Source: a virus
IMG/VR virus record: IMGVR_UViG_3300024520_000017
Span: 1-41,981 of that record
Direction: 5' to 3' (one strand)
Length of the DNA: 41,981 nucleotides
Shown here: one piece after another, positions 17,743 to 37,555 of the stretch
Position numbering within the stretch: the stretch's first letter is position 1
How the letters are laid out: each line of letters begins with the position of its first letter
The notes under the pieces: generated by a model
Databases searched by the model: none
Seen by the model: the letters and a program-made list of their open reading frames with translations, nothing else
What the model was told of the DNA's origin: nothing
Position numbers and translations under genes: made by a program

Positions 17743-17809
17743 AAAAAGACCGCCACTTACATGTGACGGCCATAGCTTACTAACTTTAGAGCCTACGTAT
17801 ATTATACCA
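17743..17809 (-). promoter_or_regulatory. Promoter-14-mer-terminator cassette C1
   Basis: On the minus strand: TGGTATAAT (17801-17809), 13 bases, AAAGTTAGTAAGCT (17774-17787), 2 bases, a 9-bp stem with 6-base loop (17748-17771), then TTTTT. The promoter precedes its own terminator by about 30 nt of transcript, and the ATG at 17738 follows at once. Same order as at 21.0, 23.1 and 37.5 kb. Confidence 0.75.
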
Positions 17810-17820
17810 ACAACAGAACC

Positions 17821-18543
17821 TTATGCAAACCTAGGACCTCTGAATTTATTACTAGTTGTGAGTATGGGCCATATTGGTTGGGCAGCCTCTGCGCCACCAG
17901 CCTCTGCGATCTCAATGGCAGCCCCCACATTTCCCGTACCGCCAAGCGTAGTCCAATCAGCAGTAGTATCCGCACTTTGGTAATCGTATTGTGTTTGTAT
18001 TGTGGAATCCTGGGAGGAATCAAGAACGGTTTCACCTATTTCGGTAAATCCTGACCCAGCGGTTATCGTTCCCAGCCCGACATCCTTCACGGTTGCAAAA
18101 ACCATGTTTGCCGCATCTGGGGTTGAGTCCAAAGTGACAGTCAAGCCAGTGCTGGTTCCTGTGTTTGTTTTATTTTGAACAACGGGGGTACTGGTGTCGT
18201 GACCCGTCACTTCGGCTACCCGCATAATCTTGTGCCTGGTTGCTACAGAAAAGGTTGTCGTTATTGTTCCTGACCCAGGTGCGCCAGTTACCAAAGCATA
18301 AGCTACACCAGAACTCAAGTCCTTGCCCCCGCCTATATCCACGGTATCTTGGACAATGGTCCACGAACCCACATTGCTTAAAGTGGTGGAAATGCTGGAT
18401 ATTGTGGTTATAGAATTGTTGGTATTACCCACAGAAACAATTAATAATGAATTGCTGGATGGGCTTATCGAACCAGTAGCAATGTTGTCAGTATTAGCAG
18501 TACTTGTAACGCCTGTTAAATTTGATGGTGCTGAAAGTGCCAT
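17821..18543 (-). CDS. Virion surface/fibre-like beta protein
   Basis: A 240-residue protein with beta-sandwich character: many Thr/Ser/Gly-rich strands such as NSLLIVSVGNTNNSITTI and GTITTTFSVATRHKIMRV. Few charged residues until the C-terminal RGPRFA. Domains like this occur on phage surfaces and in fibres. No specific family assigned. It follows two other structural genes without spacing and ends just before cassette C1. Confidence 0.65.
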   Translation of the reverse strand: MALSAPSNLTGVTSTANTDNIATGSISPSSNSLLIVSVGNTNNSITTISSISTTLSNVGSWTIVQDTVDIGGGKDLSSGVAYALVTGAPGSGTITTTFSVATRHKIMRVAEVTGHDTSTPVVQNKTNTGTSTGLTVTLDSTPDAANMVFATVKDVGLGTITAGSGFTEIGETVLDSSQDSTIQTQYDYQSADTTADWTTLGGTGNVGAAIEIAEAGGAEAAQPIWPILTTSNKFRGPRFA

Positions 18544-18544
18544 A

Positions 18545-18835
18545 TTATATTAGCGAAACTGCTACCTCCGAATTAATAGTTGTCCACTGCTGTGCCGCTG
18601 GTAGATTAGTCGATACATCTGTTCCTGGTTCTAGTATGTAAATAAACTTCTGCACCCCATCCTGTTTGGCCACGATTCTATAACTTCTATCACCAGTATT
18701 AACAGCGGAAGCACCTTTTATCAAATAGTATGGGTCACCAAATTCGTCTGTACCCGCGATTCTGGAATTATTGTATGTGAGACTAACTAAGACCCCATTA
18801 CCTACGCTGTGCATGGGTGTGGTTATGTTTGGCAT
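18545..18835 (-). CDS. Small structural-type protein
   Basis: A 96-residue protein with the pattern of a small beta domain (GNGVLVSLTYNNSRIAG and RSYRIVAKQDGVQKFIYIL). No family recognised. Its ATG overlaps the TAA of the repetitive fibre gene (TAATG), so it is translated with it and may be its partner or chaperone. Confidence 0.65.
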   Translation of the reverse strand: MPNITTPMHSVGNGVLVSLTYNNSRIAGTDEFGDPYYLIKGASAVNTGDRSYRIVAKQDGVQKFIYILEPGTDVSTNLPAAQQWTTINSEVAVSLI

Positions 18836-20442
18836 TATTCAAACCTAACGTTTGCCATCACCGATATAGTAGCAGCCCCGTTTAGTTCCACAACGAAAGC
18901 CTGATCAGCGCCGTCTGCGGCAAGCCCAGCCTCTCCGAAATTACTTACGTAACCCCCCTCTGTTGCTAGTCCTGTGAATGGTATTACGTACCCAACACCT
19001 GATTTAATAGCTACCTCTGACTCTCCTAACGAAGCTATGTGAATATCTTTTAGTACCCACCTCTCTCCACTAGGCGGCTCAAAAATAGTGGCGTTGCCGT
19101 CTGCTGAGTATACTGATGAAAATGACGTGTATGTCGAAATTGGAGGCGGTGCATATGTTGTGGTCACCAGTCCAACGTATGTTTTAGGGTCGCTGAGTGT
19201 TACATTACCTATTACGGCCACATTCCAAGGATCATCTCCTTGTTCGACCGTCACATTACCTATGTTAGATGTTACCCACGGGTTGTCGCCTTGTTCGACC
19301 GTAACGTTTCCAGTAACTGCCCATGCCCCAGATTGTGAAACTGGCACAGTGTTAGCTACAGTTGTTGTGGTTAATCCTATAAAGGTATTGGGGTCAGCCC
19401 AAGCTGTGTTAGAGGTGACGTCTACATCGCCAATATCAACCCCTGAGTTAGCAGCCAATGTTCCAATGGCCTGATCTCCAACTCCAATTGTGACGGTTGC
19501 TAGTCCAACGTATGTTTTCGCATCACTCAAGGTTACATTACCAACTATTCCTGTGAGGGATCCTGGGTCTAAAGTGACGTTTCCACTGAAGGTTGTGGCC
19601 ACCACCTCGCCATCAAGTGTTATAGGCACATCGCCTTGTCCAGTGGCGTCCACCGGTAAGGGGTTGGCAAATCCGGAAACTGAGACCAACCCAACAAAAG
19701 TTTTAGAATCGGAAAGGGTAACGTTGCCCACAATGCCGGTTAAGCTACCAGCGTCCAGAGTTACGTTCCCCGCTGCAGCCGCTAGACTTCCTGTTATGGT
19801 TACTAGACCTATATATGTTTTAGGGTCGGCCCAAGCGGTGTTGGAAGTAACATCAACATCCCCTATGTCCACCCCACTGTTAGCTGTTAGTTTACCTATT
19901 GCCTGATCCCCAGCACCTAAAGTAGTGGTTGTCAAACCAACGTATGTCTTGGCGTCAGAAAGCGTTACATTACCAGTTAACCCCCAGTCTCCTCCTTGGA
20001 ATACTGTGGTTACTCCCGCTCCACCAGCCACCACGTTAACATTCATGGCATTGTTGGCGCCATCCATTATACTATCGCCTGCTCCGTCCTCTATATCCTT
20101 AATGACATCTACTTGGTCAACCGTAACGTTTCCTGTTATTGACCAATCTCCTCCTTGAAAAACGGTTGTTGTGCCAGCACCGCCCGCTACAACATTGACC
20201 CGTACGGCGTCGTTACCTGTGTCCGCCCAATCTACCGTATCTCCAGAGGCATCTTGTGGTGATGTGTTCCAAGGGTCGTCCCCCTGATGCACTGTTGCGA
20301 AACCAATTTTATTTGTTGTGTCTCCCGCTGCTCCAGTATTAACAACTGCGTATATGGTAGACCCCGAAACTAGGTTTACATTCTTGGCGTATAAATCTTC
20401 GTTATGTTCGTCCCTTTGTATTTGTACTGAATGTTTAGCCAT
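18835..20442 (-). CDS. Repetitive fibre-like virion protein
   Basis: A 535-residue protein. After a 30-residue N-terminus it is built of repeats: GNVTLSDAKTYVGL-type 14-mers at least five times, GDQAIGxLxANSGVDIGDVD-type blocks twice, and VTVFQGGDW/VEQGDDPW motifs several times. The last 100 residues (GERWVLKDIHIASLGESEV) are a non-repetitive beta domain. Such architecture is typical of fibrous beta-helical shafts with a terminal knob. Start and stop both overlap their neighbours as TAATG. It probably projects from the virion. Receptor binding is inferred. Confidence 0.75.
   Translation of the reverse strand: MAKHSVQIQRDEHNEDLYAKNVNLVSGSTIYAVVNTGAAGDTTNKIGFATVHQGDDPWNTSPQDASGDTVDWADTGNDAVRVNVVAGGAGTTTVFQGGDWSITGNVTVDQVDVIKDIEDGAGDSIMDGANNAMNVNVVAGGAGVTTVFQGGDWGLTGNVTLSDAKTYVGLTTTTLGAGDQAIGKLTANSGVDIGDVDVTSNTAWADPKTYIGLVTITGSLAAAAGNVTLDAGSLTGIVGNVTLSDSKTFVGLVSVSGFANPLPVDATGQGDVPITLDGEVVATTFSGNVTLDPGSLTGIVGNVTLSDAKTYVGLATVTIGVGDQAIGTLAANSGVDIGDVDVTSNTAWADPNTFIGLTTTTVANTVPVSQSGAWAVTGNVTVEQGDNPWVTSNIGNVTVEQGDDPWNVAVIGNVTLSDPKTYVGLVTTTYAPPPISTYTSFSSVYSADGNATIFEPPSGERWVLKDIHIASLGESEVAIKSGVGYVIPFTGLATEGGYVSNFGEAGLAADGADQAFVVELNGAATISVMANVRFE
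19170..19985. repeat. Degenerate intragenic repeats in the fibre gene
   Basis: The segment coding GNVTL-SD-KTYVGL recurs near 19180, 19500, 19690 and 19930. A longer unit coding ANSGVDIGDVDVTSNTAWAD recurs at about 19390-19470 and 19815-19900. Copies differ mostly at third codon positions, indicating old duplications kept for protein structure. Confidence 0.8.
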
Positions 20443-20948: not shown

Positions 20949-20992
20949 AATTTGTGTAAACCGTTCTTCTTTGTTTAAACTTAGTTAGAAAC

Positions 20993-21058
20993 AAAAAAAG
21001 GGCCTCCTTTGTGGAGAACCCTCAGCTTACTAACTTTCGGTATAGTCATATTGTACCA
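20993..21058 (-). promoter_or_regulatory. Promoter-14-mer-terminator cassette C2
   Basis: TGGTACAAT (21050-21058), 12 bases, AAAGTTAGTAAGCT (21024-21037), a hairpin of about nine pairs with one bulge (21000-21022), then seven T. It lies just after the stop of the 21076 gene and before the SD-less gene at 20948. Confidence 0.75.
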
Positions 21059-21075: not shown

Positions 21076-21456
21076 CTAATTTGCTAATATTGCTTGTTTC
21101 ATTTTAAGGACGTCTATCTTTGTGTTTAGCGTAGTCCAACGATGTACTTTCCTCAACAATTCACTACCTTTACCCGACATGCCGGCATCCCTAATGACAC
21201 TCTTGATTAAAAGAACGGCCTCAGGTCCCCCATCTACACCTGCTGCCTTTTTAGCCCAGGTATAAATATCCTCCATCTCTTTACCCATTGTGTCCAGCCC
21301 ATCATCGAGTCCTAGTAGTATAGATAGGTCCTGCATGTCCTTTAGTCCCGTAATGCCCTTAAGATCTTCAACATGCGAAACCTCGGGACCTCTTCTATCT
21401 TGTAGGCCTATCTCTTCTCTTTGTAAGACCTTGGCTAAAGGGACTCTGTCGCTCAC
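21076..21456 (-). CDS. Helical protein, short paralogue of the 20442 gene
   Basis: A 126-residue protein sharing the IYxWAK and Leu-x-x-x-Asp patterns with the protein at 20442-20948 but lacking its long coiled coil. The start is a GTG overlapping the stop of the spike gene (TAGTG). Position directly after a large fibre/spike gene suggests an assembly factor. That is inference only. The gene is followed at once by cassette C2. Confidence 0.7.
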   Translation of the reverse strand: MSDRVPLAKVLQREEIGLQDRRGPEVSHVEDLKGITGLKDMQDLSILLGLDDGLDTMGKEMEDIYTWAKKAAGVDGGPEAVLLIKSVIRDAGMSGKGSELLRKVHRWTTLNTKIDVLKMKQAILAN

Positions 21457-23054
21457 TAGAACAGTTCCACCCAGTTAATGGCCACATCTACTGTGGAGTT
21501 TGTGCCGGCTGACGTTTGTTGAGCTGTCACTGTGAACACGTCCCCAGGATTCAGCCTGAATCTGGTGGGATCTAGATTAAACAACCTATTGCCCGAAGAG
21601 TTCAACACACTGGAAAATTGTGTACTTCCCCCGGATATCGCAGTCGCAGCAGAGTCCTTCTCCACCACAGAGTCACTGGCATCCACATCGGCGTAGGAAG
21701 CTGCGGTTAAGGCACCATTCACTCTGAATCTTATTCTGACAGGTTTATTACCTACGGAGGTAGATACTTCCAAAAAGGTAAGCTGTATTCTGGTTCTATT
21801 CTCCTCTCCTTGGTACACTGGTTTATTTCTTACAGAGAGTATGGGTTGTTCCGAGCCCTCATCAACGTCAGTGTCCTCCGCATCTGCCGAGTTTCTTACA
21901 AAGTGATTGTTTGGTTCTTTACCCTCTATAAACCCAGCTATGGAGGGGCTAAGCATCTCTATATTAGAGGTATTAGAGGTGTTAATAACCGACATAAATA
22001 CGGGAAGTGTTGGATTTTGAACAGAGGTTAGAGTATTAGCATTGGCGTATTGAATAGAATGAACTCTGACCAGTTTCCCTGTGGCAGGATCTTCTATAAA
22101 AAAGGATATCATTCCGTACCCCAACCACTGGTATCTTATTTGATAGACGTTTCCCTTGGTTGTATCTAGGGTAACCCCACTATTTCCTGTACCATCCATG
22201 ACATCATCACTCCAAGATGTTTGTGCAACCCAGGTGTCGGTCGCCGCGATCCCTGTAACAACGTTGGTAACTCCACCAGTGACTGCTGCTCCAGTGGTAT
22301 CCGTGTCCGCAAAGGAATAAGATCCCCCATGAGCTGCCGCATCATAAGATATAAAGGTAACTGTGGATCCAGCTGCATAGGTTCTCCACCCTGTACCAAC
22401 CCCGCTGAAGTCCCCAGCAGCTATGTCATTAGCTGTGGTAGTAGTATCTCCAGAGGTTGCGTCTGTAACTTCCACTGGCCCCCCGTCCCCATCTAAAGTA
22501 ACCGTGACTGTACCTGCAGATGTGGCCTTCGTAGTGACGATAAGCTGAACTATCTTACAGGCCCCACCACTTCTTCTTAAAACTCCAAAATCGGCCCCAT
22601 TGTAGCCAAAAAAATACCCATCTGAGGACGACCCCACACCCATTATTTGTTCGGAGCCGGCCACACCTATGGTGTAGATGGTAGTGAATCTGGCCAAACC
22701 TCCCTGACCCGCATTGTATTTGACTGGGATTTTGGTGAGTGCTATAGCTGCTTGATTGGCGGATGCTCCTGTGGATATCTTTAACCTGTTGGTATCTATG
22801 GTGGCAGTGCCCCCATTCAATCTAGTCTCCATGATCCTACCGTTTATATTATAAGGAAAAGTAACCTGCACCACAGGAGTTGGCTCTACTGCAGAGAGTT
22901 CCCCAAAAGCAGAACGCCCTCCCCCACCAAAATCTATTATCTGGTTATCTCTATTATCTACAAGAAACACCTTTTTACCAGCTGTATTACTGATATGAAT
23001 ATGTTCTTCTTGGTCTATTGCTGGTTGTGTATTTCCTTTGTGTACGTTTGGCAT
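21456..23054 (-). CDS. Large beta-rich virion protein (spike/fibre-like)
   Basis: A 532-residue protein. The N-terminus (HIHISNTAGKKVFLVDNRDN) leads into a lectin-like beta sandwich around 60-170 (FTTIYTIGVAGSEQIMGVGS), a long central part and a C-terminal domain with RIQLTFLEVSTSVGNKPVRI. Composition and size are those of a structural surface protein that may bind host glycans. No catalytic motif seen. It is the first structural gene after the glycan cassette and lies behind cassette C3. Its ATG lacks a Shine-Dalgarno site. Confidence 0.7.
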   Translation of the reverse strand: MPNVHKGNTQPAIDQEEHIHISNTAGKKVFLVDNRDNQIIDFGGGGRSAFGELSAVEPTPVVQVTFPYNINGRIMETRLNGGTATIDTNRLKISTGASANQAAIALTKIPVKYNAGQGGLARFTTIYTIGVAGSEQIMGVGSSSDGYFFGYNGADFGVLRRSGGACKIVQLIVTTKATSAGTVTVTLDGDGGPVEVTDATSGDTTTTANDIAAGDFSGVGTGWRTYAAGSTVTFISYDAAAHGGSYSFADTDTTGAAVTGGVTNVVTGIAATDTWVAQTSWSDDVMDGTGNSGVTLDTTKGNVYQIRYQWLGYGMISFFIEDPATGKLVRVHSIQYANANTLTSVQNPTLPVFMSVINTSNTSNIEMLSPSIAGFIEGKEPNNHFVRNSADAEDTDVDEGSEQPILSVRNKPVYQGEENRTRIQLTFLEVSTSVGNKPVRIRFRVNGALTAASYADVDASDSVVEKDSAATAISGGSTQFSSVLNSSGNRLFNLDPTRFRLNPGDVFTVTAQQTSAGTNSTVDVAINWVELF

Positions 23055-23056
23055 AT

Positions 23057-23119
23057 AAAATAGGGACCCCTTCTACAGGACCCCAGCTTACTAACTTTAA
23101 GTCTAGCGTTATTATATCA
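23057..23119 (-). promoter_or_regulatory. Promoter-14-mer-terminator cassette C3
   Basis: TGATATAAT (23111-23119), 12 bases, AAAGTTAGTAAGCT (23085-23098), a hairpin GGGGTCCT/GGGTCCCT with one U-U mismatch (23062-23084), and a weak T-run TATTTTAT. The ATG of the 532-residue protein is at 23054. It separates the glycan cassette from the tail genes. Confidence 0.7.
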
Positions 23120-23122: not shown

Positions 23123-23941
23123 TTACTTTAGGTAATCCAACTGAACAGGTATTTCCCCACTCTTCATCTTATTCATTTGCTCAAAGTGATACTTAGCTGG
23201 AGACTTCCTATCCTTCTTGGCTTGATCCGGAGACCAACTGTCGTGGTCAAACCCCATACACTCATTGGTCTGATCTATAAACTGCCTATAACCCAAGAGA
23301 TCGGCCCGTTGTGCTATAGCTACATTATCCCACGCAAACCCCTCGTAATCATACTGTGGGTCCATTCCCCCTAACTCCCTAATGACAAAGTTAGGTATAG
23401 CTGCGTAATTTAGTTCCCAGTCTGGTGGGTTACACATGTAGAATGTACCTTGGTCTGTCCTCATTCTAGGATCTTCCCAAGTCATATTAAAGGGTTTCTG
23501 CTTATAAGGCTCTTCAAAAACTGTTATTAGACCTTTCTTATCCACCCTATCATCCTTACCCGGGTTGCTGTATTGATGTCCTACTCCCGTTACGAGAACT
23601 CCCTCAGGGTGTTCCTTGTGGTGAAACCAATACTTCTCTAGAGAATCGTGGGGTATCCATATAAAGTCTTGCAAACAGACTATCAGTTCACCCTCGCAAC
23701 TGCTAAATCCTTGGTTATCTGCATGGGCCAGGTTAGTTAGTGCCCCCTCCTTCATAGAATCTTGTCTGACGTACTTAAGCCTTGGATCGTTGATATACTC
23801 TTTAACTAGAGCCTCTCGCTCTCTCCACAACCCATCTACTATGATCAGTTCGAAGTCCTCCTCGGTCTGACGCATCATGTTAGCCCACAATATGTCTATC
23901 CCACCGTACCTATTAGTGAGGTTCATTACTGATATTTTCAT
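23123..23941 (-). CDS. Family-2-like glycosyltransferase
   Basis: A 272-residue protein with a GT-A start (MKISVMNLTNRYGGIDILWA), FELIIVDGLWRERE near residue 36, and CEGELIVCLQDFIWIP near 90, where a DxD-type metal site is expected (here LQDF). Trp/Asp-rich motifs follow (YEGFAWDNVAIAQRADLLGY, typical of the end of GT-A domains). It should transfer a sugar from a nucleotide sugar. It is the last gene of the glycan operon. The ATG overlaps the previous TGA as ATGA. Confidence 0.8.
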   Translation of the reverse strand: MKISVMNLTNRYGGIDILWANMMRQTEEDFELIIVDGLWREREALVKEYINDPRLKYVRQDSMKEGALTNLAHADNQGFSSCEGELIVCLQDFIWIPHDSLEKYWFHHKEHPEGVLVTGVGHQYSNPGKDDRVDKKGLITVFEEPYKQKPFNMTWEDPRMRTDQGTFYMCNPPDWELNYAAIPNFVIRELGGMDPQYDYEGFAWDNVAIAQRADLLGYRQFIDQTNECMGFDHDSWSPDQAKKDRKSPAKYHFEQMNKMKSGEIPVQLDYLK

Positions 23942-24489
23942 TTTTTCACCGCCGCCCATCCTATAAACGATTTCTTACTTACTATAATCTTATCTCTAGC
24001 ACAGAAGTAGAAAGGTCCCCTAGGTAGACCCTCTGGAAAAGCATGGTGGGTTTTGTTGACTCCGTAATCCACAAACTCCAAAGCTCTCCCACACACCAAA
24101 CAATTAGGACTTTCGTCAGAGGGTATAAAAAAGTCAGCATCCCTACCCTCCTCCTTTAGTTTTCTTATCAGTGGATCGAAATACTCATCGTTCACTACCC
24201 TACCTGTGCCTTTACCTACAGGCCTAAGGACGGGTATTAACTCCCTAAATAGGTTCCTGTAAGCGTGGAGTCTGTGAGTGCCGTCTAGTACTGCGTTGTT
24301 TTCGTCTATAACAATGGGAGGAAAGATAGAGCCCTTGTCTAGCTCCTTGGTATAAACCTTAAGCTTAGGTGCTTGGGTATTGTGCTCTGCCGGGTCGTCT
24401 ATTAAGTCTACTGGGAATTCCACTATCTCCCAGTCCTTCTCGTCACCGGATACACTATGAATTACGTGTTTCTTAAGCGCTTCTATCAA
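23938..24489 (-). CDS. ParB/Srx-fold protein with zinc-binding C-terminus
   Basis: A 183-residue protein. Residues about 55-80 carry the ParB-fold box (IVIDENNAVLDGTHRLHAYR), and the C-terminal part has CLVC (Cys 130, 133), KTHHAF (His 148-149) and FCARD (Cys 163), a likely zinc site. In a glycan operon it is unlikely to be a partition protein; ParB-fold relatives such as SerK are small-molecule kinases, so a metabolite- or sugar-modifying role is possible. The TTG start has AAGGAG four bases upstream and overlaps the epimerase stop by 17 bases. Confidence 0.75.
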   Translation of the reverse strand: MIEALKKHVIHSVSGDEKDWEIVEFPVDLIDDPAEHNTQAPKLKVYTKELDKGSIFPPIVIDENNAVLDGTHRLHAYRNLFRELIPVLRPVGKGTGRVVNDEYFDPLIRKLKEEGRDADFFIPSDESPNCLVCGRALEFVDYGVNKTHHAFPEGLPRGPFYFCARDKIIVSKKSFIGWAAVKK

Positions 24490-25426
24490 ACCACTCCTTT
24501 AAACTCAGTATCCCTGGTTTAGCATCAATTGCAGGCTCCCAGTTCAGGTCTTTCTTAAGTTTTGAGATATCTGACACGTAGTACTTCTGATCCGCAGGTC
24601 TCCAGTCGTCATAGGATATCCCTGTGTCTATATCAGCTATATCAATGAGATCCATAAGAGAGATGACATTCTCTGGACCCCCTCCTGTGTTATAGGCCTG
24701 GCCACTAACCTTATCCTTATTCTTCCACGCTAAGTCGTAGAGTCTCACTAAATCGTCTACGTGCAACACATCCCTAACTTGATGCCCATTCCCAAAGATT
24801 GTGATAGGTAATCCATCTCTATTTGCTATTAAAAACCACGCCACCCATCCCTGCTCCTCTGCTCCGTGTTGATAAGGCCCATAAATACAGGACTGTCTGA
24901 ATGATACTGTAGGTATGTCATATATCCTGCTATAGTCTAAGACGTACTGATCTGCGGCCCCCTTAGATACTCCGTAAGGTGTGTGAAAGTTTAATTGTGT
25001 ATCTTCCCCCACAGGCTCGTCTACTTGTATATCCCCATAAACCTTGTTGGTGGAGGCAAAGACTACGAATGGTTTTATATCGTGCCTACGTGCATACTCT
25101 AGTACCTCAAAGGTTGTTACGGTGTTTGAAAATAAATCTAATCTGGGACTCTTTATGGACTTCCCTACCCCCACCTGCGCCGCCATGTGGAATATAGCGT
25201 CTACAGCAGGCATGAGTCCTAAGCCGTCTATTACGTCCTCCTGTATGTGTTGGTAGTTAGGATATTTCCTTAGTACCTCCAGATTATCCTTGGACCCCCT
25301 ACGGCTCATGTTGTCTATTCCATAGACCTCAAGTCCTTGGTCAAGATAATATACAGCAATGTTGGTTCCTATAAACCCGCAGGAACCAGTTATCAGTACC
25401 CTCTCACACCTTGTTGTTACAGTCAT
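24473..25426 (-). CDS. NAD-dependent nucleotide-sugar epimerase/dehydratase
   Basis: A 317-residue extended short-chain dehydrogenase. The NAD-binding GSCGFIG lies at residues 14-20, FHMAAQVGVG near 80, and the catalytic YGVSK (Tyr 151, Lys 155) with Ser/Thr at 125-126. SFRQSCIYGPYQHG and GNGHQVRDVLHVDDL are the usual substrate-side motifs of the GalE/RmlB-like group. It would convert one nucleotide-activated hexose to another as donor for the neighbouring transferases. Exact substrate cannot be told. ATG overlaps the upstream stop as ATGA. Confidence 0.9.
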   Translation of the reverse strand: MTVTTRCERVLITGSCGFIGTNIAVYYLDQGLEVYGIDNMSRRGSKDNLEVLRKYPNYQHIQEDVIDGLGLMPAVDAIFHMAAQVGVGKSIKSPRLDLFSNTVTTFEVLEYARRHDIKPFVVFASTNKVYGDIQVDEPVGEDTQLNFHTPYGVSKGAADQYVLDYSRIYDIPTVSFRQSCIYGPYQHGAEEQGWVAWFLIANRDGLPITIFGNGHQVRDVLHVDDLVRLYDLAWKNKDKVSGQAYNTGGGPENVISLMDLIDIADIDTGISYDDWRPADQKYYVSDISKLKKDLNWEPAIDAKPGILSLKEWFDRSA

Positions 25427-26157
25427 AACTTAGTGAACTCCTCTCTCCAGGGCCTAGCCATTTGCTTTGGATATAACTTGTTGTAGTACTCCTCAGGATA
25501 GTCCCCGAACTCTTCCTTGAATAACTCCCTGTTCTCTTCGTGATGCTTACTTTGTTCTCCCACGATTTGGGTAGTTGATGAGTCCTTATGTTGGAAACAA
25601 GTTTTTGTGGTATACGCAGTTTGTAAACCGTACGACCTAATCTCACTCCAGAAGTACCAATCCTCGTAAGCCCCACCAGTCCCCTTGAAGTGTTCTGGGA
25701 ATGGGAACCCGTTATTCCTTATGACAAAGCATGATGATTGGCACCATCTCTCCATACCTGTGGCAAAAGTCTTGTCCCCAATCTTCATCTCCTCATCGTA
25801 GAAACACATTCTAGGGTGTACCGAGACTGTTCCTTCGTCTCTTAAGATATCAAAGCAAACCTCCCAGAAGTTAGGGGCTATACGTACGTCGTTGTTTGTA
25901 AGGAGTAGGTATTTACCCCTAGCTATAGCAATCCCATCGTTTATCGATTTAATAAAACCCTTATTGTGGCGGTGATAAATGTAGGTATCAGCCTGCTCTT
26001 TTAGGTAACCTGAACCCATAGGAGAGTTATCATCGATTATTATTATCTCATAGCCCGGTAGATCAGCCGCCTTTAGTGAGTGGATTGTGTTTTTGGTTAG
26101 TTGTAATAGCTCCTCGTTAGCTATGTAACAAGGGATGATGATTGATAGTTCAGGCAT
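25423..26157 (-). CDS. Family-2 glycosyltransferase (GT-A)
   Basis: A 244-residue classical GT2 enzyme: LSIIIPCYIANEELL at the start, IIIIDDNSPMGSG (Asp 42-43), HNKGFIKSINDGIAIARGKY, and the metal-binding LLTNNDVRI at about 86-93. The aspartate pair and NND bind the nucleotide sugar. ERWCQSSCFVIR and GAYEDWYFW are acceptor-side motifs. Overlaps on both sides (ATGA downstream, 8 bases upstream) tie it to the operon. Confidence 0.92.
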   Translation of the reverse strand: MPELSIIIPCYIANEELLQLTKNTIHSLKAADLPGYEIIIIDDNSPMGSGYLKEQADTYIYHRHNKGFIKSINDGIAIARGKYLLLTNNDVRIAPNFWEVCFDILRDEGTVSVHPRMCFYDEEMKIGDKTFATGMERWCQSSCFVIRNNGFPFPEHFKGTGGAYEDWYFWSEIRSYGLQTAYTTKTCFQHKDSSTTQIVGEQSKHHEENRELFKEEFGDYPEEYYNKLYPKQMARPWREEFTKL

Positions 26158-26965
26158 TCTCTATACCTCTTAGTAGATCTTCTGCATACCTCTGTGCCGA
26201 GTAGTGCTTTAGAATGAACTCTCTTGGATACATACCAGACAAAGTCCACTTCTTAACGTATTCCAGGGCCTTAGTGTTATCTCCTGACACACTCACAGGA
26301 ATGCCACAACTAAGCGCTTCTAGCACTGTTCTTCCACTTCCTTCCCACCCGGTTATATCTACTAGCTCTGACTTGTTGAACAGTTCCCTTATGAATTCCA
26401 CCTCGTAATACCCAAGCATAATGTTTGTGCCCGCCTTCACACAGTGTCCTAGTATTTCATACCCATCGGGCTGCACTGTACCTAGTAACAAGCCTTTATC
26501 CTTGTACCTATCAGCGAAGATGTTTTGCCTTTTCCACTGACTAAAGGTTGCGGGATAAAATGCCTCATACTCTTTCTTCAAATTCATGGGCTTGAAAAAC
26601 CTGCCATCAGTACCAAAGGCTGTAATTGCCCTAATCCCCGCTGGTCTTATTTGATTAGTTACCTCGTCTGCCTCCGGGAACACCACGTCATAGGCCCTCA
26701 GAGCTTCCACGTTCAATCCTAAGTTAGTTGTAAGCACCAAGCCCTTCCTAGCCTCATACTTTGAGAGTTGTGGTATAAACTCGCTTGTAGAGTTGTCCCA
26801 GTTAAGTATGAAGTCAGAGTCATCGGGGATCTCTATGTCTAATCCTAAATGCCAGCGTACGTTGTGTTTCTTCTCTATTATTTCAAATGCAGCACGTAGA
26901 CCATCTCGCCACTTAGGGAACACCCACTCTGCCTTATTGAAGTACCATACGACATCTATGTTCAT
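26150..26965 (-). CDS. GT-B glycosyltransferase (family-4-like)
   Basis: A 271-residue protein with a C-terminal GT-B nucleotide-sugar site, DITGWEGSGRTVLEALSCGI at about residues 209-228, corresponding to the E-x7-E pattern of family 4. The N-terminal part (MNIDVVWYFNKAEWVF) is a shortened Rossmann domain. It is shorter than usual (about 350-400), so the acceptor domain is reduced. Its start overlaps the previous TGA as ATGA. Confidence 0.8.
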   Translation of the reverse strand: MNIDVVWYFNKAEWVFPKWRDGLRAAFEIIEKKHNVRWHLGLDIEIPDDSDFILNWDNSTSEFIPQLSKYEARKGLVLTTNLGLNVEALRAYDVVFPEADEVTNQIRPAGIRAITAFGTDGRFFKPMNLKKEYEAFYPATFSQWKRQNIFADRYKDKGLLLGTVQPDGYEILGHCVKAGTNIMLGYYEVEFIRELFNKSELVDITGWEGSGRTVLEALSCGIPVSVSGDNTKALEYVKKWTLSGMYPREFILKHYSAQRYAEDLLRGIENA

Positions 26966-28145: not shown

Positions 28146-28738
28146 GATTTAAACATTCCAAACCCGCTGTGGTGTAAAACACTCAGATCCAGCTTCTCTG
28201 TCTTTATGTCCACCCAAGCTTCAAATAGCCCATCCATCTTAATGTCATCCATAATCACAACCTTACCCTCACCTATAAGTGGTAGATATTCTTTCATTTC
28301 TCTCCGTACTGCTTCCTCGGTATGTTCTGCGTCGATGAATAAGAGGTCAGTCTTAGACCAGTCTAGGTCTTTAGGCCACACACCCATGTCCGAGTCATCT
28401 CCTATTATCTTTGTTAATTGTGGGTAATGTTCCTTGATGTATGAGAACTCCAGTCCGTGTTCTGCTAGTGTTATAGAGTACAGTTTGGAATTGTTGGCCA
28501 ACTGTGAAAGCATACACAGTGCTGAAGTCCCCATAGCTCCACCTAACTCCACCACTTGTTTAGGCTCGAGTACCTTAATTAAACACGCTAGCCACTGATA
28601 ATACAAGCTGTTCTTAGTGTCCATCACGTCGTTGTAACTTCCTTGGGCTACGTTCTTTAAATAGGGCTTGAGTAACTCAACATCGTACGTTTCTAACTCC
28701 TTGAAAACCTTATCGTTTAATTCCTTTAGCGATCCCAC
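28142..28738 (-). CDS. SAM-dependent methyltransferase, second type
   Basis: A 198-residue protein with VVELGGAMGTSALCMLSQLA (SAM loop) and KTDLLFIDAEHTEEAVRREM followed by KVVIMDDI, the pattern of the Methyltransf_24/CmcI-like group, which often methylates hydroxyl groups of sugars. The start is a GTG with GGAGG ten bases upstream, overlapping the zinc-ribbon gene by 13 bases. Acts on a small or glycan substrate by inference from its neighbours. Confidence 0.85.
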   Translation of the reverse strand: MGSLKELNDKVFKELETYDVELLKPYLKNVAQGSYNDVMDTKNSLYYQWLACLIKVLEPKQVVELGGAMGTSALCMLSQLANNSKLYSITLAEHGLEFSYIKEHYPQLTKIIGDDSDMGVWPKDLDWSKTDLLFIDAEHTEEAVRREMKEYLPLIGEGKVVIMDDIKMDGLFEAWVDIKTEKLDLSVLHHSGFGMFKS

Positions 28739-28932
28739 TTAGCTACATCCTCCGGTCTCTTCTCACTACCAGTATAGGGGTTTCTAGTTCTCTGTCTGTA
28801 TCTGTAATTAGTCTCACACCTCAGGGAACAAAAGAATGTGTCGTACACTCCTCCTCTTGATCTAGTCCTTGGTCTGTCTGTTTCTATCTTCTTACCACAC
28901 TCGGGGCACTCCTCGGTTCTTTTTTCTGCCAT
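28726..28932 (-). CDS. Zinc-ribbon protein
   Basis: A 68-residue protein with CPECGKK near residue 9 and FFCSLRCET near 33-41, a two-pair zinc ribbon of the kind found in small DNA- or RNA-binding proteins, and an Arg-rich end (YRYRQRTRNPY). It starts at an ATG overlapping the stop of the 41-residue gene as TAATG. Role within the glycan operon unknown; it could regulate the operon. Confidence 0.75.
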   Translation of the reverse strand: MAEKRTEECPECGKKIETDRPRTRSRGGVYDTFFCSLRCETNYRYRQRTRNPYTGSEKRPEDVAKWDR

Positions 28933-29057
28933 TAAATCTCCTTTAGCCTTCTAAGTAATTTTAGCTTCTTATCTAGCCTACGAAAGCACAGTGAACAGAG
29001 TTGTACCCGTCCCTGATAGGCTAGTTCTCGCTCATTTCTGCATAGGTAGCAGGTCAT
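28932..29057 (-). CDS. 41-residue zinc-finger protein
   Basis: A very short reading frame with CYLC near the start and CSLC at about residues 22-25, followed by a Lys/Arg/Leu helix (KKLKLLRRLKEI). Both ends overlap coding neighbours: ATGA with the glycosyltransferase stop and TAATG with the next start. That precise linkage, plus the two Cys pairs, supports a real gene. Likely a mini zinc-binding protein. Confidence 0.7.
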   Translation of the reverse strand: MTCYLCRNERELAYQGRVQLCSLCFRRLDKKLKLLRRLKEI

Positions 29058-29629
29058 TTTTTAAAATCCTCATCCCACTGGACTGCTACGTTTGTCCAAG
29101 TGTATTCCTTGTTGGCCCACTTCATCATAGGCCCTCTTATCTCCTCTTGTCTCTTCGGGTCTTTAAGTAGAGCAATAAGCTCATCCCTAAACTTCTCCCT
29201 TACCTCCTTGTCATATATGTCCCCCTGAACCTTAACCCCATGCTGTACCGTGGTCTCAAGTGCTGCGTACTCTATAACTACGGGCACACAACCAAGCATC
29301 TGGGCCTTCATTGCTGTAATACAGGAGATCTCTCCGAAGTGCGTTGGGTAAGCCCACACTCCCGCTGTGGCCATTACCTTGTGTATCTCATCCTGTGAGA
29401 CTCTCCCCATATGATTAATACCATCAGCTTCCATCATCTTATTCATCTTATTCATCCAAGCCATTCGTTCTGGGTTATCCCCATAGAACCTTTTAAAAAG
29501 TGTCCAACCATAGTAGACGTCTAGCTCTGCCTCGGGTACAGCCTTTTTAACCCCGGGCCATATCTTTAGCAAGTGTTCTAATCCTCTATCATATGAACTT
29601 GTGTATATTACTTTAGTTGGTTTGTTCAT
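29054..29629 (-). CDS. GT-B glycosyltransferase C-terminal half (split enzyme)
   Basis: A 191-residue protein that contains only the C-terminal, nucleotide-sugar-binding domain of a family-4 glycosyltransferase: KVIYTSSYDRGLEHLLKIWP at the start, HMGRVSQDEIHKVMA, and HFGEISCITAMKAQMLGCVP at about 125-144 with the E-x7-type pattern. The missing N-terminal domain matches the end of the 619-residue protein two genes upstream, so the two probably associate. ATG overlaps the methyltransferase stop (ATGA). An in-frame start at 29653 exists but lies deep in the previous gene. Confidence 0.82.
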   Translation of the reverse strand: MNKPTKVIYTSSYDRGLEHLLKIWPGVKKAVPEAELDVYYGWTLFKRFYGDNPERMAWMNKMNKMMEADGINHMGRVSQDEIHKVMATAGVWAYPTHFGEISCITAMKAQMLGCVPVVIEYAALETTVQHGVKVQGDIYDKEVREKFRDELIALLKDPKRQEEIRGPMMKWANKEYTWTNVAVQWDEDFKK

Positions 29630-30375
29630 TTTGCTATCTCCACTAGCATGCACCTATCATGGTCCAAGCTAAAATGTTTAATACTATAATCCTTTACTAG
29701 TTCCCTAAACTCCTTCTCACTCCAAAGTCTTAGGTGCCCTGCAGGCACACCATCGTCCCACCCCTCCCTGTCCTTATTTGCCAGGTGGTCATCAATGCCT
29801 ACATGGTCATCTCTTGGAGTGGATATGAACAAGCTGCCACCTTCCCTTACAAGAGATAAGGCGTTCTCTATACCCTTTATAGGATCTGGTAGATGTTCTA
29901 TCACTTCCAGCATAACCGCGGCCTCATACTTACCCACGTGATCAAACATATCCTCACACACAAAGTAAGCTGGTGCCTTGACCAAGGCGGCCCTATGATT
30001 AGCCAGATCAATAGATTCCTGATTTAAATTAACTCCAACAGACATATAACCCATTCTGCCAAGAGTTAACCCTAGATACCCATCGGCACATCCAAGATCA
30101 CAAAAGAACCTGTAATCCCTCTCAATGATGGTCTTCATAACCCAATCTAAACGTTCGTGTAGCCCCACACAATTCACAGCAGTTTCCATCCTTAGAGGCA
30201 GTTCCTTTAAGGTCTTACTGTAGTACTTTTTGTATACATCCTCATCAAAAGCATGTTCTACTTTCCCCCAAACTTTATCCTTTAACTCTCCCTCAGTGTC
30301 TTTAACTAGGTCCCAGGCCTTTAGGGCTTGGTTGTAGTCCATGAGTGTGTCTACTTGTTTTCTTAAATCACTCAC
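29626..30375 (-). CDS. SAM-dependent methyltransferase inserted between glycosyltransferase halves
   Basis: A 249-residue class I methyltransferase: FFCDLGCADGYLGLTLGRMG (motif I near residue 90), VNLNQESIDLA (motif II), AAVMLEVIEHLPDP (motif IV) and LVREGGSLFISTPRDD (motif V/VI). An N-terminal helical part of about 80 residues precedes the core. It probably methylates a sugar or a precursor. GTG start overlaps the 619-residue gene (GTGA) and its stop overlaps the next ATG (ATGA). Confidence 0.88.
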   Translation of the reverse strand: MSDLRKQVDTLMDYNQALKAWDLVKDTEGELKDKVWGKVEHAFDEDVYKKYYSKTLKELPLRMETAVNCVGLHERLDWVMKTIIERDYRFFCDLGCADGYLGLTLGRMGYMSVGVNLNQESIDLANHRAALVKAPAYFVCEDMFDHVGKYEAAVMLEVIEHLPDPIKGIENALSLVREGGSLFISTPRDDHVGIDDHLANKDREGWDDGVPAGHLRLWSEKEFRELVKDYSIKHFSLDHDRCMLVEIAK

Positions 30376-32231
30376 AAAGTTACCCCGTTCTTTGAAACCA
30401 TTACCTTCTCATCTGGTACATCAGGTATATTGGTTCTGTGCCATGGTGATAAAACTATCACTTTCTCTATCTTCTCAAGTCTCTCCTCGGTATATTGTAG
30501 TGGGTTGATGATGTCGTGGTTCCAGATGTAGATCTTCTTAGCCTTAGGGTTACCATCTACAAACGCTGGGTTTCTCCAGGCTACTATAATATTGAAATCA
30601 TCTTGTGGATTATAGGCAAAGTAGGGTAGATACATAACACCATCATGATCGCCCTCATCAGACCCTGGCTCTGCATACACTGTAACCTTCCAACCTAAAT
30701 CCCTAAGCTCCATTGCTAGATACATCACAGCCTCCTCGCTTCCTCCTACAAACCCCTCGGCCTCTCCCTTGAGGACCTTGGGACTCCATGCGGTGAACCC
30801 AGGCCCACAAAAGATTGCTACCTCGTTATCCTCCCATGTCCTAGGAGGGAAAACCTCACGACGTAGCTTCTCTATAAATGGGTTCTTACTTGCGTGCGAT
30901 GGTACCGCTGCGAGTAGTGGCTTGAGTCTTTCTCTCTCACCTTTAGTTTTCAAATCATTAGCTAGGAATGCAACACTCTTTGTTACCTCCCGCTCGTTAA
31001 TCATGCTCCTAGTTAATCTTACTCTGTTTAATAGCTCCTCCCTGTCTGGGTGGATTGCGTATAACTCCTCTGCCGCCGCAGCTGCTTCGTCTAACATAGA
31101 CAGTTGAATACAAGCCCCATAAGTCACTTCTAAGGCTCTCGCTTTCAAATCCCTAGGGTTAGTAACGAGGGTAGATGGTGGGGGTGGAACACTGGTTGCT
31201 ACCTTCACCCAATGTAACGCTGCGTGGTGATTACCTTTGACTAAGTAAGTGATAGCTAGATTTAAATAAGCTGATGGGAATTTAACATCCTCCATTAAAG
31301 ATTGGTAACAGGCCGTTAGGGCGTTGTCGTTTTCTCCTAGCGCCCTATAGATCTCGGCCGCTAACTCCCAGCACTGCGCCCTCTCCTCGCCCCAGCCCGA
31401 TTTATTATTATACTCGTACTCTGGTGAGCCAAAAATATAGATCTTAAACAACCCAAGAGCCCTTCTGTAGTATTCATTGGTCTTTAAATCAAAGTAGGCC
31501 TTACCAAGATAGTAGATGGTTCTTGGATCTCTGGCCTCGTTCTCGTAGATGTTGTACTCAAGAGTTTTAATATTTCGACCTATTGCGCTCCTCATCTTGT
31601 TGTCTGTTGTTAAGTGTAAGATCTCACACAACTTACTCTCTATTTTGTTGGTTGGTCTACTCTCTATTAAGGTCTCATGAATTGGTGCTTTCCACTCATA
31701 TACTCCAATGTTCCTAACCAACCTCTCCCTTAGGTGTTGGATTAATATCTGCTCTATCTTGCCGTCTTTAATGATTGCCTGGTAAATGTAGTTTAAAAAC
31801 ACGGCCTCTGCTTTTTTTGAGTCGGCCTCCTTTATAATGTCTCTGAGATTCTTGCCAGCCCTCAGTACGTCATCTGTGTCCATCCACAGAATCCAATCAT
31901 ACTCCTTACCCACCTGTGCAAAGTTGTGATTTCTAGCTTGATCGAATTGGAATAGTTTGTCTCCCATTTTGAGTACAGGGTCGTAACCAAAAGAATCTTT
32001 AAGCCAACTAAGTGACTCCTGATCCACTGTTCTCCAGAATTTAGTAGGCTCACGGTCAACAACAGCGCCGTATTTCTCACCGACCTTACCCACTCCTTCA
32101 TCTTCGGTTGTTACTGTTATGAAAATACCGTCTACCCACTTCGCTACTGAATTTAAACATCTATCTAATACTTCAGGTTTTTCACTACCCTTGACGATCA
32201 TCGCCAGGGCAATTTTGGGGTTACTAGCCAT
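30372..32231 (-). CDS. Multidomain glycosyltransferase: GT2, TPR-like, GT-B N-terminal half
   Basis: A 619-residue fusion. Residues 1-130 are a GT-A domain (KIALAMIVKGSEKPEVLDR, and ILWMDTDDV at 114-122 with the DxD). About 200-420 are TPR-like helical repeats (IYYLGKAYFDLKTNEYYRRA, SAYLNLAITYLVKGNHHAAL). From about 470 onward it is a GT-B N-terminal Rossmann domain (GFVGGSEEAVMYLAMELRDL, KKIYIWNHDI), ending abruptly at SKNGVTL, just where the second domain of such enzymes begins. No Shine-Dalgarno; TATAAT is eight bases before ATG, so the message should be leaderless. First gene of the glycan operon. Confidence 0.85.
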   Translation of the reverse strand: MASNPKIALAMIVKGSEKPEVLDRCLNSVAKWVDGIFITVTTEDEGVGKVGEKYGAVVDREPTKFWRTVDQESLSWLKDSFGYDPVLKMGDKLFQFDQARNHNFAQVGKEYDWILWMDTDDVLRAGKNLRDIIKEADSKKAEAVFLNYIYQAIIKDGKIEQILIQHLRERLVRNIGVYEWKAPIHETLIESRPTNKIESKLCEILHLTTDNKMRSAIGRNIKTLEYNIYENEARDPRTIYYLGKAYFDLKTNEYYRRALGLFKIYIFGSPEYEYNNKSGWGEERAQCWELAAEIYRALGENDNALTACYQSLMEDVKFPSAYLNLAITYLVKGNHHAALHWVKVATSVPPPPSTLVTNPRDLKARALEVTYGACIQLSMLDEAAAAAEELYAIHPDREELLNRVRLTRSMINEREVTKSVAFLANDLKTKGERERLKPLLAAVPSHASKNPFIEKLRREVFPPRTWEDNEVAIFCGPGFTAWSPKVLKGEAEGFVGGSEEAVMYLAMELRDLGWKVTVYAEPGSDEGDHDGVMYLPYFAYNPQDDFNIIVAWRNPAFVDGNPKAKKIYIWNHDIINPLQYTEERLEKIEKVIVLSPWHRTNIPDVPDEKVMVSKNGVTL

Positions 32232-35061: not shown

Positions 35062-35085
35062 CTTTTTCTCCTCTTCCTTAACTTA

Positions 35086-35262
35086 TTACTTAATGAAGCT
35101 TCCAAAGCTACTTGATTTGCTTTTAGCTGCATTTGTTTCACTAATAACCTTAGCGGATGGTGCATCTCCTAGTGGAATACTAGGATCAGTCATGTGTCCG
35201 TTAGGTACAGTCTTTTTTGTTTCAGCGAGGGTTGCTCCCTTGCCTTTTAAGAACTTGCTCAT
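35086..35262 (-). CDS. Small Lys/Ser-rich protein
   Basis: A 58-residue reading frame starting MSKFLKGKGATLAETKK and ending KSKSSSFGSFIK. A strong AAGGAGG lies seven bases before ATG and the start overlaps the end of the previous gene as ATGA. Disordered and basic, of a type seen near portal genes. Function unknown. Confidence 0.7.
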   Translation of the reverse strand: MSKFLKGKGATLAETKKTVPNGHMTDPSIPLGDAPSAKVISETNAAKSKSSSFGSFIK

Positions 35263-35573
35263 TTAAATACCTCCTTAAAATTATCTACTTTCTTACCACT
35301 TTGTTTGTCTTTCAAAGCCTTAGACCTGTCAGCCATCATGGCCTCCATCCTAAGTAGCTCATTTATAGCCTGAGCGGCTCCCCAACCGATTAGATAATCA
35401 TCCATCAGTTGATCTCGATCACTAGCGTCTTTGGGATTGACCCAACTGTGCTTTACCTTGCGCTCCAATAGCGGCCGGAGCACCTCTTTCCAACCCCTGT
35501 GGTTGTACAGCTCCAGCATTAAGTCCGCTTGATCCAGCGTTTGCTGCTCCTCCTTGGTTAGCTTGTTGCTCAT
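35259..35573 (-). CDS. Helical protein overlapping the portal 3' end
   Basis: A 104-residue helical protein (KEEQQTLDQADLMLELYNHR, DDYLIGWGAAQAINELLRME). Its first 50 codons lie inside the portal gene in a different frame (152-bp overlap). AGAAGG lies six bases before the ATG, and the stop overlaps the next start (ATGA), so it is a real gene. The portal frame there is low-complexity, which is the usual sign that the second frame arose by overprinting. Possible head-assembly role. Confidence 0.78.
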   Translation of the reverse strand: MSNKLTKEEQQTLDQADLMLELYNHRGWKEVLRPLLERKVKHSWVNPKDASDRDQLMDDYLIGWGAAQAINELLRMEAMMADRSKALKDKQSGKKVDNFKEVFK

Positions 35574-37476
35574 TTAAACCTTCTTCCTGAGAGACTCTCT
35601 CAAAATATTTATCCGCGTCCTTAATTCCAGATTTCTCCATAATGTCCTCAATCAGTTCCTTAGACTTAAGCTTAAATCCATCTGTTGCCAAGGATGCAGC
35701 TAGTTGTGGGTTCTGAGTGATCTCTAGCAGTTGTTTAGTTAGTGCAACCTCTTCCGCTTGGTTAGGTAATTCCATTGACTCTATATCGGCGATGTAATCA
35801 TATGTTCCAGATAAATCTTCTGGTTCTATGATTAGATGGCCCATATCTCCACCCTCTTCTAAGGTGAACTTTGGCAATCCTCCCTCTTTTGTGCTAACTG
35901 GGAATCTATCTACAGCTAGTTCCATAGGATCGATGTCCACCCCTTCCATCTCAGGTGATGTCATAATCTCTATTGCTTCATCAGGTATAACCTTACCGTC
36001 TAACCCAACTCTCTCAAAGTATCTGATAGCCTCTTTACCTACCACCCTTATAACCTTGACTTGATCTGTAGGGTCAGTAAACAGAAACTGCGCGTTCATA
36101 CGTTGCCAGAACATCATCTGCTTCTTGATAGCCTCTGATAGGAAGATCTGGTTGTAGTTATCTCTAGCTCTTCGCTGTAGGTCTGAGCTTCGTACCTCTG
36201 TTGCAGTCTTCTTTTCGTCCCCAGGAATAGCTGACGATACTCCAGCACTGGTCTCTCCTAGCCCTTCTTGCATAGCATTGATTAATAATCTGTAGGTTGT
36301 AGCAAACTCCCCGACTCCTGTAGGACTTTGGTCATGTGCTATAACGTCTGATGTTGGGTCGTTCATTAACCACTTCTTACCTGGCCCAAACTCCAATGTA
36401 TGCATCTCAACTGATTCACTTCTGATCTTAAGTGGTGCGTATAGACTCATATTGATTTGATCTACGTACTGACTCCATAGGGAGTTAACAGCCTTTTGTA
36501 ACTTCATTACAGGTTCTATCTCACTCAACCCGTAAGTGTCATCATCAACAGGGTAGTACTTAAGCATTACCACAGGTATCTGACCGTGATCATAAGGGTT
36601 TGGTATGTCTCTTAGAATAACCCCGTGCTTAGCTGAGAAGGTGATCCATCTGTCTTTCCTATACTCTGTGGTTACCTCAATAGTTTTGAATTGCTCAGTT
36701 AAGTCATCTCCTAATCTATCAGGAAGTCCCGCAATAGATTTGTTTCTCGATGTGTAGTTAGATGATCTAGTATCTCCACCACTGCTACTACTCTCAAGTT
36801 GTAGTCGTTGCATTAATAAATCAAGGTTCTTGTATATCGGTTTGCCTCTCGTTGCGTCGTTTGTGTTCTTTAGCTCCTCAAGAGTTAAGTACTCTCGGTA
36901 TTGAAACCAGTTCTTAATGTTTGAGTACGCAGGGTTTATCAGTACGTCTCTGTTAACAAGTACTTGGAAGTCTGGTCCATCAAAATAAACCTCACTCTCT
37001 CCCTTAGGTTTCTTATCATCCTTGTTGTTAACCTTGGTCTTTCTCTCATACTTCCACTTAACCAGTGCAAACCCAGCTCCATACTTACGTGCGTTTTGAT
37101 CTAGTGTTGACCACTTAGCAAGCATAGGTGTTGAATCTACCCTTTCGTTATCATCCCATTGGAAATCTAACAGTTGGTTGTTAATCATAGCTCCAAGTGA
37201 ATCTCCACCCTCTCTAGGTACTAATCTTCCTCTTGGCTTACGTGCGAACAGTCGTGAGGTTTTCTCAAAGATTGATGTAAATGTACGCGGATCAAAGATT
37301 AATGAGTTGTAAGGCCATGAGCTTTCCTCTATGTGTGATCTAAATAGCTCATCAACCTTGTTAAACTCTGTCCTTCTTCTATCCAGATCAGCACGAGCCA
37401 TATCATAATGCCTAATGACATCGTTGAATTGTGACCTTTCTTGTTCTGTTCCTACTGCTGGTATTTCGCTTGGCAT
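35422..37476 (-). CDS. Portal protein
   Basis: A 684-residue protein with features of podovirus portals: helical N-terminus (NDVIRHYDMARADLDRRRTE), PYNSLIFDPRTFTSIFEKTS, the wing region with YREYLTLEEL, the stem region MKLQKAVNSLWSQYVDQINM near residue 330, and a long C-terminal helical barrel. The last 60 residues are Gln/Gly/Ala-rich. It forms the dodecameric DNA gate of the capsid. The ATG lies behind cassette C4 without a Shine-Dalgarno site, which is unexpected for such a gene. Confidence 0.9.
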   Translation of the reverse strand: MPSEIPAVGTEQERSQFNDVIRHYDMARADLDRRRTEFNKVDELFRSHIEESSWPYNSLIFDPRTFTSIFEKTSRLFARKPRGRLVPREGGDSLGAMINNQLLDFQWDDNERVDSTPMLAKWSTLDQNARKYGAGFALVKWKYERKTKVNNKDDKKPKGESEVYFDGPDFQVLVNRDVLINPAYSNIKNWFQYREYLTLEELKNTNDATRGKPIYKNLDLLMQRLQLESSSSGGDTRSSNYTSRNKSIAGLPDRLGDDLTEQFKTIEVTTEYRKDRWITFSAKHGVILRDIPNPYDHGQIPVVMLKYYPVDDDTYGLSEIEPVMKLQKAVNSLWSQYVDQINMSLYAPLKIRSESVEMHTLEFGPGKKWLMNDPTSDVIAHDQSPTGVGEFATTYRLLINAMQEGLGETSAGVSSAIPGDEKKTATEVRSSDLQRRARDNYNQIFLSEAIKKQMMFWQRMNAQFLFTDPTDQVKVIRVVGKEAIRYFERVGLDGKVIPDEAIEIMTSPEMEGVDIDPMELAVDRFPVSTKEGGLPKFTLEEGGDMGHLIIEPEDLSGTYDYIADIESMELPNQAEEVALTKQLLEITQNPQLAASLATDGFKLKSKELIEDIMEKSGIKDADKYFERVSQEEGLNEQQANQGGAANAGSSGLNAGAVQPQGLERGAPAAIGAQGKAQLGQSQRR

Positions 37477-37490
37477 AATTTATACTCAAT

Positions 37491-37555
37491 AAAAAAAGAG
37501 CCCCGTTAAGGACCCTCAAGTTTACTAACTTTATAGAGCTACCATTATTTTACAC
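37491..37555 (-). promoter_or_regulatory. Promoter-14-mer-terminator cassette C4
   Basis: A -10-like TAAAAT (37547-37552) preceded by GTG, 14 bases, AAAGTTAGTAAACT (37519-37532, one base different from the other three), a hairpin (37498-37517), then seven T. It lies directly after the stop at 37555 and 14 bases before the portal ATG. The hairpin is weaker than in C1 and C2. Confidence 0.65.

Follow-up and report, generated by a model that had tools for sequence, protein, structure and literature searches.

Four promoter–hairpin–terminator cassettes before structural genes

The window analysed here, the whole 41,981-nucleotide stretch of virus record IMGVR_UViG_3300024520_000017, carries 127-bp repeats at its ends and is therefore probably complete. 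It codes for a terminase, a portal protein, a major capsid protein (phrog_1328) and a structural protein of phrog_1645, and among the named phages of the collection portal identity to the window does not exceed ~27%, over part of the length. Four minus-strand genes of the window, among them those for the portal and the spike, stand behind a compact cassette consisting, in this order, of a −10 promoter element, 12–14 nucleotides (nt), the 14-mer AAAGTTAGTAAGCT, a hairpin, a T-rich run and an ATG (Table 1). All four had been described as promoter–14-mer–terminator cassettes in an earlier note on this DNA, and each is confirmed at its site and strand.

The 14-mer is exact in cassettes 1–3 and differs by a single change in cassette 4. 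Elsewhere in the window even the best matches carry three mismatches, a chance level; a fifth, partial match at 41855–41879 was set aside as lying inside coding sequence. A TGn precedes the −10 element in cassettes 1–3, the gap between the −10 element and the 14-mer measures 13, 12, 12 and 14 nt in cassettes 1–4, and the hairpin begins 0–2 nt after each 14-mer. The ATGs (17738, 20948, 23054 and 37476) follow the start of the T run by 6–51 nt, the first having been corrected to 17738 as judged from the homologue in relative G001. None of the four has a Shine-Dalgarno (SD) match of ≥5 nt, and many other genes of the window have one. The order promoter, terminator, open reading frame (ORF) is rare, a strict scan returning few sites per genome.

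Recurrence of the cassette in uncultivated phages

Relatives are uncultivated phages found through the portal gene, first as 16 and then as 80 loci. Nearly all of the ~13 distinct relatives, at 48–62% identity, carry a −10 element, a small hairpin, a strong terminator and an ATG before the portal gene. The distinct portal leaders number 63, of which 51 contain a terminator and 49 are complete cassettes, comprising the −10 element, the hairpin, the intrinsic terminator and an ATG lacking an SD sequence, with SD matches of ≥5 nt in 0 of these 49. Relatives that kept the terminator and had lost the 14-mer or the promoter would, according to the earlier note, speak against its interpretation; what is found is mostly the opposite, the small hairpin being present in 49 of the 51 terminator-bearing portal leaders. 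Moreover, the spike block of G001 retains the cassette despite a different gene order, and a strict scan of 24 genomes recovers 16 hairpin-positive sites against 2.7 expected. No repeats of the relatives' own portal leaders were found within 10 kb, and MW202497.1 (Manatee Spring, terminase 37%) has a promoter and an SD sequence, with no cassette, before its portal gene.

The word itself behaves differently. Exact copies of the 14-mer occur on at least 119 IMG/VR contigs, and the best-folding of these, the window excepted, lack the promoter–hairpin–terminator arrangement, so that phages do not have this word in common. Within one genome the copies usually have a P2 stem (the upper stem of the hairpin described below) or a loop in common: AGTA four times in the window, AGCTAAAATAAGCT twice in G007, AGA three times in G003 and GAAAA twice in G005. 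Between genomes the P2 and loop sequences usually differ.

A genome scan for a host with the portal gave no match, and one with the terminase returned short contigs of metagenome-assembled genomes (MAGs) labelled Micrarchaeota, Nomurabacteria and an unnamed bacterium, together with ~40% matches in Spirochaetales. An archaeal MAG, labelled Micrarchaeota, holds a 10-kb contig (L285) whose terminase is 68% identical to that of the window and whose portal gene is preceded by a hairpin, seven T and an ATG; it is probably a mis-binned phage contig.

A conserved hairpin that shares a strand with the terminator

Comparison across the family establishes the anatomy of the cassette, its recurrence, the base pairing of two stems and their overlap with the terminator. 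By this comparison the conserved feature is a predicted RNA hairpin rather than a 14-base word, and the 14-mer is its tip, supplying in the window a bulged A, the 4-bp stem P2 (AGTT/AGCT) and the A-rich loop AGTA. Folded to the end of the terminator 5′ arm, the leaders form a single hairpin composed of a lower stem, P1, and P2, measuring 28–31 nt in most of the distant relatives. The base 5′ of P2 is an A in 51 of 60 leaders, and the loops, of 3–6 nt and mostly 3–5 nt, are 68% A. The 3′ strand of P1 lies inside the terminator 5′ arm in 57 of the 60, making the antiterminator and terminator folds mutually exclusive.

This overlap is obvious in the distant relatives. For example, L267 reads GGTTAGA-AA-GGCG-AAAAA-CGCC-G-TTTAGCC, with the terminator beginning in GCCGACC. 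In G018 (AAGCAGTT ... GACTGCTT aatag GCAGTT TTTTT) the sequence of the terminator 3′ arm recurs as the P1 5′ strand, so that two nearly identical strands, the first and the last, compete for the middle one, an almost perfect switch.

The complementarity of P1 exceeds that of swapped partners whether P2 is curated (z 7.8) or chosen automatically (z 5.1; 0/20000 in each case), and pairing is confined to a single register, J1−J2 = +1, corresponding to one extra unpaired nucleotide on the 5′ side. This register reaches z 11.9 with curated P2, 8.3 with program-chosen P2 and no manual exclusion, and 6.7 after thinning of similar leaders, while all other registers range from −0.7 to 1.5, and from −0.4 to 1.3 with program-chosen P2. 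The 12 distant leaders that could be aligned have 86% of cells paired and 31 double-sided changes, where shuffles give 10.1 (0/500); sliding the structure lowers pairing to 25–52%, and RNAalifold returns the same fold. For 11 near leaders, all four window copies among them, pairing reaches 87%, with 24 double-sided changes against 10.4 (0/500). In addition, dinucleotide-shuffled sequences fold less well than the family as a whole (Stouffer z −13.7). No family among the Rfam 15 covariance models matches at its gathering score, and open-access full-text literature yielded no description of such an element.

The proposal of the earlier note that the 14-mer is a recognition element for antitermination or attenuation fits this comparative evidence well, with the amendment that a hairpin is conserved: the word differs from phage to phage, and the shape, the register and the A-rich loop are kept.

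Coordinates and neighbouring genes

Table 1. Predicted elements of the four cassettes and the genes behind them, in window coordinates.
Feature	Position	Strand	Remarks
Cassette 1 extended −10, TGG TATAAT	17801..17806	−	TTTGCA-17-TATAAT with TG
Cassette 1 P1 5′ strand, GGCT	17790..17793	−	weak
Cassette 1 14-mer, AAAGTTAGTAAGCT	17774..17787	−	unpaired A's and P2 AGTT-AGTA-AGCT
Cassette 1 intrinsic terminator stem-loop	17748..17771	−	T run 17747–17743; opens with the 4-nt P1 3′ strand GGCC
Gene behind cassette 1, 65 aa	17541..17738	−	no SD; G003 and G006 homologues also behind a promoter–terminator leader
Cassette 2 extended −10, TGG TACAAT	21050..21055	−	
Cassette 2 14-mer	21024..21037	−	P2 AGTT-AGTA-AGCT
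Cassette 2 terminator, GAGGGTTCTCC..GGAGGCCC, and T run	20993..21023	−	P1 3′ strand GGT in 5′ arm; P1 only 3 bp
Coiled-coil gene behind cassette 2, 168 aa	20442..20948	−	homologues behind a cassette in G002, G003, G005, G006 and G007
Cassette 3 extended −10, TGA TATAAT	23111..23116	−	
Cassette 3 P1 5′ strand, GACTT	23099..23103	−	pairs with GGGTC 23083–23079, family register
Cassette 3 14-mer	23085..23098	−	P2 AGTT-AGTA-AGCT
Cassette 3 terminator, GGGGTCC..GGGTCCC, and T-rich tract	23057..23084	−	
Spike/virion structural gene (phrog_1645) behind cassette 3	21456..23054	−	
Cassette 4 −10, TAAAAT	37547..37552	−	no TGn
Cassette 4 P1 5′ strand, GCTCT	37535..37539	−	pairs with AGGGT 37516–37512
Cassette 4 variant 14-mer, AAAGTTAGTAAACT	37519..37532	−	G-to-A turns the P2 U·G pair into U-A
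Cassette 4 terminator, GAGGGTCCTTAACGGGGCTC, and T run	37491..37517	−	
Portal gene behind cassette 4	35422..37476	−	

Several other features of the window stand apart from the cassettes. On the minus strand, TATAAT ends from a few to ~14 nt before the ATGs at 40980, 32685, 32231, 18543 and 8000, which suggests leaderless or near-leaderless mRNAs for these genes. An ORF at 3417–3719 encodes almost nothing but Gly-Ser/Arg/Trp repeats, which stem from 17 copies of a 12-nt tandem repeat. Positions 18835–20442 encode a 535-aa protein of repeated GNVTLSDAKTYVGL-like units (DNA repeats D2, D4, D5 and D9). Between the capsid and spike genes, 23123–32231 holds genes that by eye resemble those of glycosyltransferases, methyltransferases and sugar epimerases, parts of which recur in relatives.

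A putative terminator/antiterminator switch

The cassettes are likely to form terminator/antiterminator switches at the head of late operons, operating by the logic of the BglG/SacY ribonucleic antiterminator (RAT) and probably driven by a factor. In the proposed mechanism, each cassette would be the leader of a late operon, with transcription starting ~6–8 nt past an active −10 element. The nascent RNA could adopt either of two folds: a single antiterminator hairpin, comprising P1, an asymmetric internal loop with an extra 5′ A, P2 of ~4 bp and an A-rich loop of 3–6 nt, or an active intrinsic terminator whose 5′ arm holds the P1 3′ strand. The terminator, being the more stable when unaided, would stop transcription by default before the structural gene. 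An RNA-binding factor, presumably phage-encoded and recognising P2, the loop and the bulge, which are constant within a phage and vary from one phage to another, would stabilise the antiterminator, so that the portal, spike and tail modules would be expressed together, late in infection.

The predicted folding energy of the window RNAs is −5 to −6 kcal/mol for the antiterminator and −11 to −18 kcal/mol for the full leader with its terminator; since the antiterminator is the weaker, the leader should terminate without help. Furthermore, the sharing of P2 and loop within a genome and their difference between genomes suggests that each phage has its own matching binder acting in trans, and an RNA-binding factor of this kind is probably involved. 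A broader proposal, given somewhat less than even odds, is that an undescribed RNA antiterminator controls virion-gene modules in a large group of uncultivated tailed phages, with a phage-encoded RNA-binding protein, co-evolved with a phage-specific bulged-A hairpin, switching on several structural operons at once.

Several points weigh against a factor-driven switch. Searches of the phage proteins found no binder. Specifically, CAT_RBD (PF03123) was found in 0 of 11 phage genomes, the window included and some of them fragments, in a search that recovered its positive controls; ANTAR (PF03861) was likewise found in 0 of 11, a weak test, as no control passed the family cut-off; and when 40 small window proteins were scanned against Pfam and PHROGs, no known antiterminator was among the matches listed. 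Taken by themselves, the window copies reach significance for neither P1 nor the antiterminator fold (z −0.3 to −0.5): P1 has 3–5 bp with G-U pairs, not all copies are in the +1 register, and arms swapped among the four copies pair as well as the natural ones, so that the structure of these copies is assigned by homology to the family. P2 was corrected by hand, by eye, in 24 of the 60 leaders, though the automatic test still holds, and the members of the 12-leader (A3) and 11-leader (A6) alignments were picked for compatible length. The strict scan of 24 genomes missed the window itself and found no more than its 16 sites, while G002 and G006 each have more than one loop type, as partial exceptions to sharing within a genome. 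Finally, the leaders are related by descent, and the evidence comes wholly from sequence.

One candidate for the factor was considered. A 95-aa gene at 37555–37842, between the terminase and portal genes, is weakly DUF2292-like (E 0.0045, below cut-off) and has conserved counterparts in 16 of 23 further phages; its product is predicted to fold into three helices and a beta hairpin (predicted local distance difference test score, pLDDT, 89.8), with no PDB match at E <2. Co-occurrence does not support it as the effector, the gene being present also in L224 and L234, which lack a portal cassette.

Alternative explanations

The 5′ position of the antiterminator, which would fold first, together with the outcome of the factor searches, fits factor-free antitermination or kinetic attenuation as well, in which the hairpin alone would set a fixed level of read-through, purely in cis, in the manner of HK022 put, an element that needs no dedicated protein (PMC9378689). 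This explanation is unlikely. A pure folding device has no need of a P2 and loop shared within genomes and differing between them, and put is an RNA of ~70 nt with two stem-loops that binds RNA polymerase and acts on distant terminators (PMC9378689), whereas here one hairpin of ~28–31 nt overlaps one terminator.

The hairpin and U-rich tract might instead stabilise the 5′ end of the mRNA and provide an SD-independent translation start, with no role in termination. The missing SD matches in the cassette portal leaders agree with such a role, as do a T run that often ends at the ATG (its start lies 7 nt before the ATG in 12 of 64 leaders) and a G-rich terminator 3′ arm (223 G against 114 C in 64 leaders) whose exposure could help translation. 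Taken as a replacement for the switch, this is quite improbable, leaving unexplained both the small P2 hairpin and the pairing of P1 with the 5′ arm of the same terminator hairpin in a fixed register. Alongside the switch, the same role could couple transcription and translation control. Exactly seven T followed directly by the ATG are frequent in the leaders of relatives, e.g. G001b, G002b, G003b, G006b and L285, and this run and the G-rich 3′ arm together hint at coupled translation control.

A promoter leading directly into a terminator would also release short RNAs of ~45–50 nt, and these might have a role of their own, with the genes read through from upstream. Little credence attaches to this possibility: a lower stem overlapping the terminator would have no role, transcripts from upstream would meet the same terminator, and nowhere in the window does the reverse complement of the 14-mer appear except opposite its four copies, leaving the short RNAs with no obvious phage target. 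Least probable of all is a DNA operator, an inverted repeat just past the start site to which a dimeric repressor would bind, with a terminator that separates transcription units, for although P2 has inverted-repeat symmetry near +6 to +20 and three window copies share an identical 14-mer, an operator would not be expected to have loops A-rich on the RNA strand throughout, a second stem covarying in one asymmetric register and reaching the terminator arm, or a hairpin in nearly every terminator-bearing portal leader.

Implications for late-gene control

Known phage antitermination systems (N/nut, Q, put and p7) modify RNA polymerase, which then passes many terminators. The comparative evidence on the cassettes points to a different arrangement, one small and separate RNA switch per late gene block, following the logic of bacterial RAT attenuators, present in dozens of uncultivated phages and without an entry in Rfam. 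Late-gene control of such phages would thereby become testable by simple in vitro transcription. Moreover, a factor-driven switch predicts a new family of RNA-binding proteins and could provide a collection of compact hairpin/terminator switches, perhaps together with the factors that match them.

Comparison with known systems

The RAT antiterminators of BglG, SacY and LicT are single hairpins of ~29–30 nt that partly overlap an intrinsic terminator and are stabilised by an RNA-binding protein (PMC3369931). The cassette hairpin resembles them in its size in most of the distant relatives and in its overlap with the terminator, through which the two folds exclude each other. It departs from them in its one-nucleotide asymmetric internal loop and A-rich loop, in the lack of an Rfam match, and in its occurrence in several copies before phage structural genes with a sequence varying from phage to phage; with no CAT_RBD protein in the 11 phage genomes, it falls outside the RAT class on the protein side. 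ANTAR target RNAs likewise place a small hairpin upstream of an intrinsic terminator and overlapping it, in several copies within one operon set, and require two hairpins with hexanucleotide loops (A1, G4) (PMC3369931). The cassette shares the small overlapping hairpin and the multiple copies, but has one hairpin with an A-rich loop of 3–6 nt in place of the two hexaloop hairpins.

The earlier note had drawn analogies to lambda Q-type and HK022 put antitermination. Like put, the cassette would be a phage RNA element just past a promoter that gives read-through; however, it is one ~30 nt hairpin followed by a terminator, and put shares no strand with a terminator. The logic of the cassette is closer to that of RAT, since the P1 3′ strand within the terminator creates two exclusive folds. 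Lambda N/nut, Q-type and AlpA antitermination have in common with the cassette that phage or phage-like genes lie behind a terminator. In these systems RNA polymerase acquires a protein, loaded at nut RNA or at promoter DNA (for AlpA, PMC9371919), with no mutually exclusive RNA folds.

Two further likenesses concern the hairpin itself. A few P2 stems carry GAAAA loops resembling that of lambda boxB, a likeness that serves as a lead only. In the operator hairpins of the RNA phages MS2 and PP7 a bulged A lies beneath a short stem whose loop contains A, an arrangement also seen in the cassette hairpin, and a protein recognises them, as is proposed for the cassette; they differ in controlling translation and packaging in RNA phages, and no search for a coat-like RNA binder was made here. 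In its predicted folds the cassette is an attenuator in the general sense, a 5′ leader with two mutually exclusive structures, one of them an intrinsic terminator. The element is real, recurrent and structured, stands before phage structural genes, and has a mechanism that is likely of the terminator/antiterminator kind.

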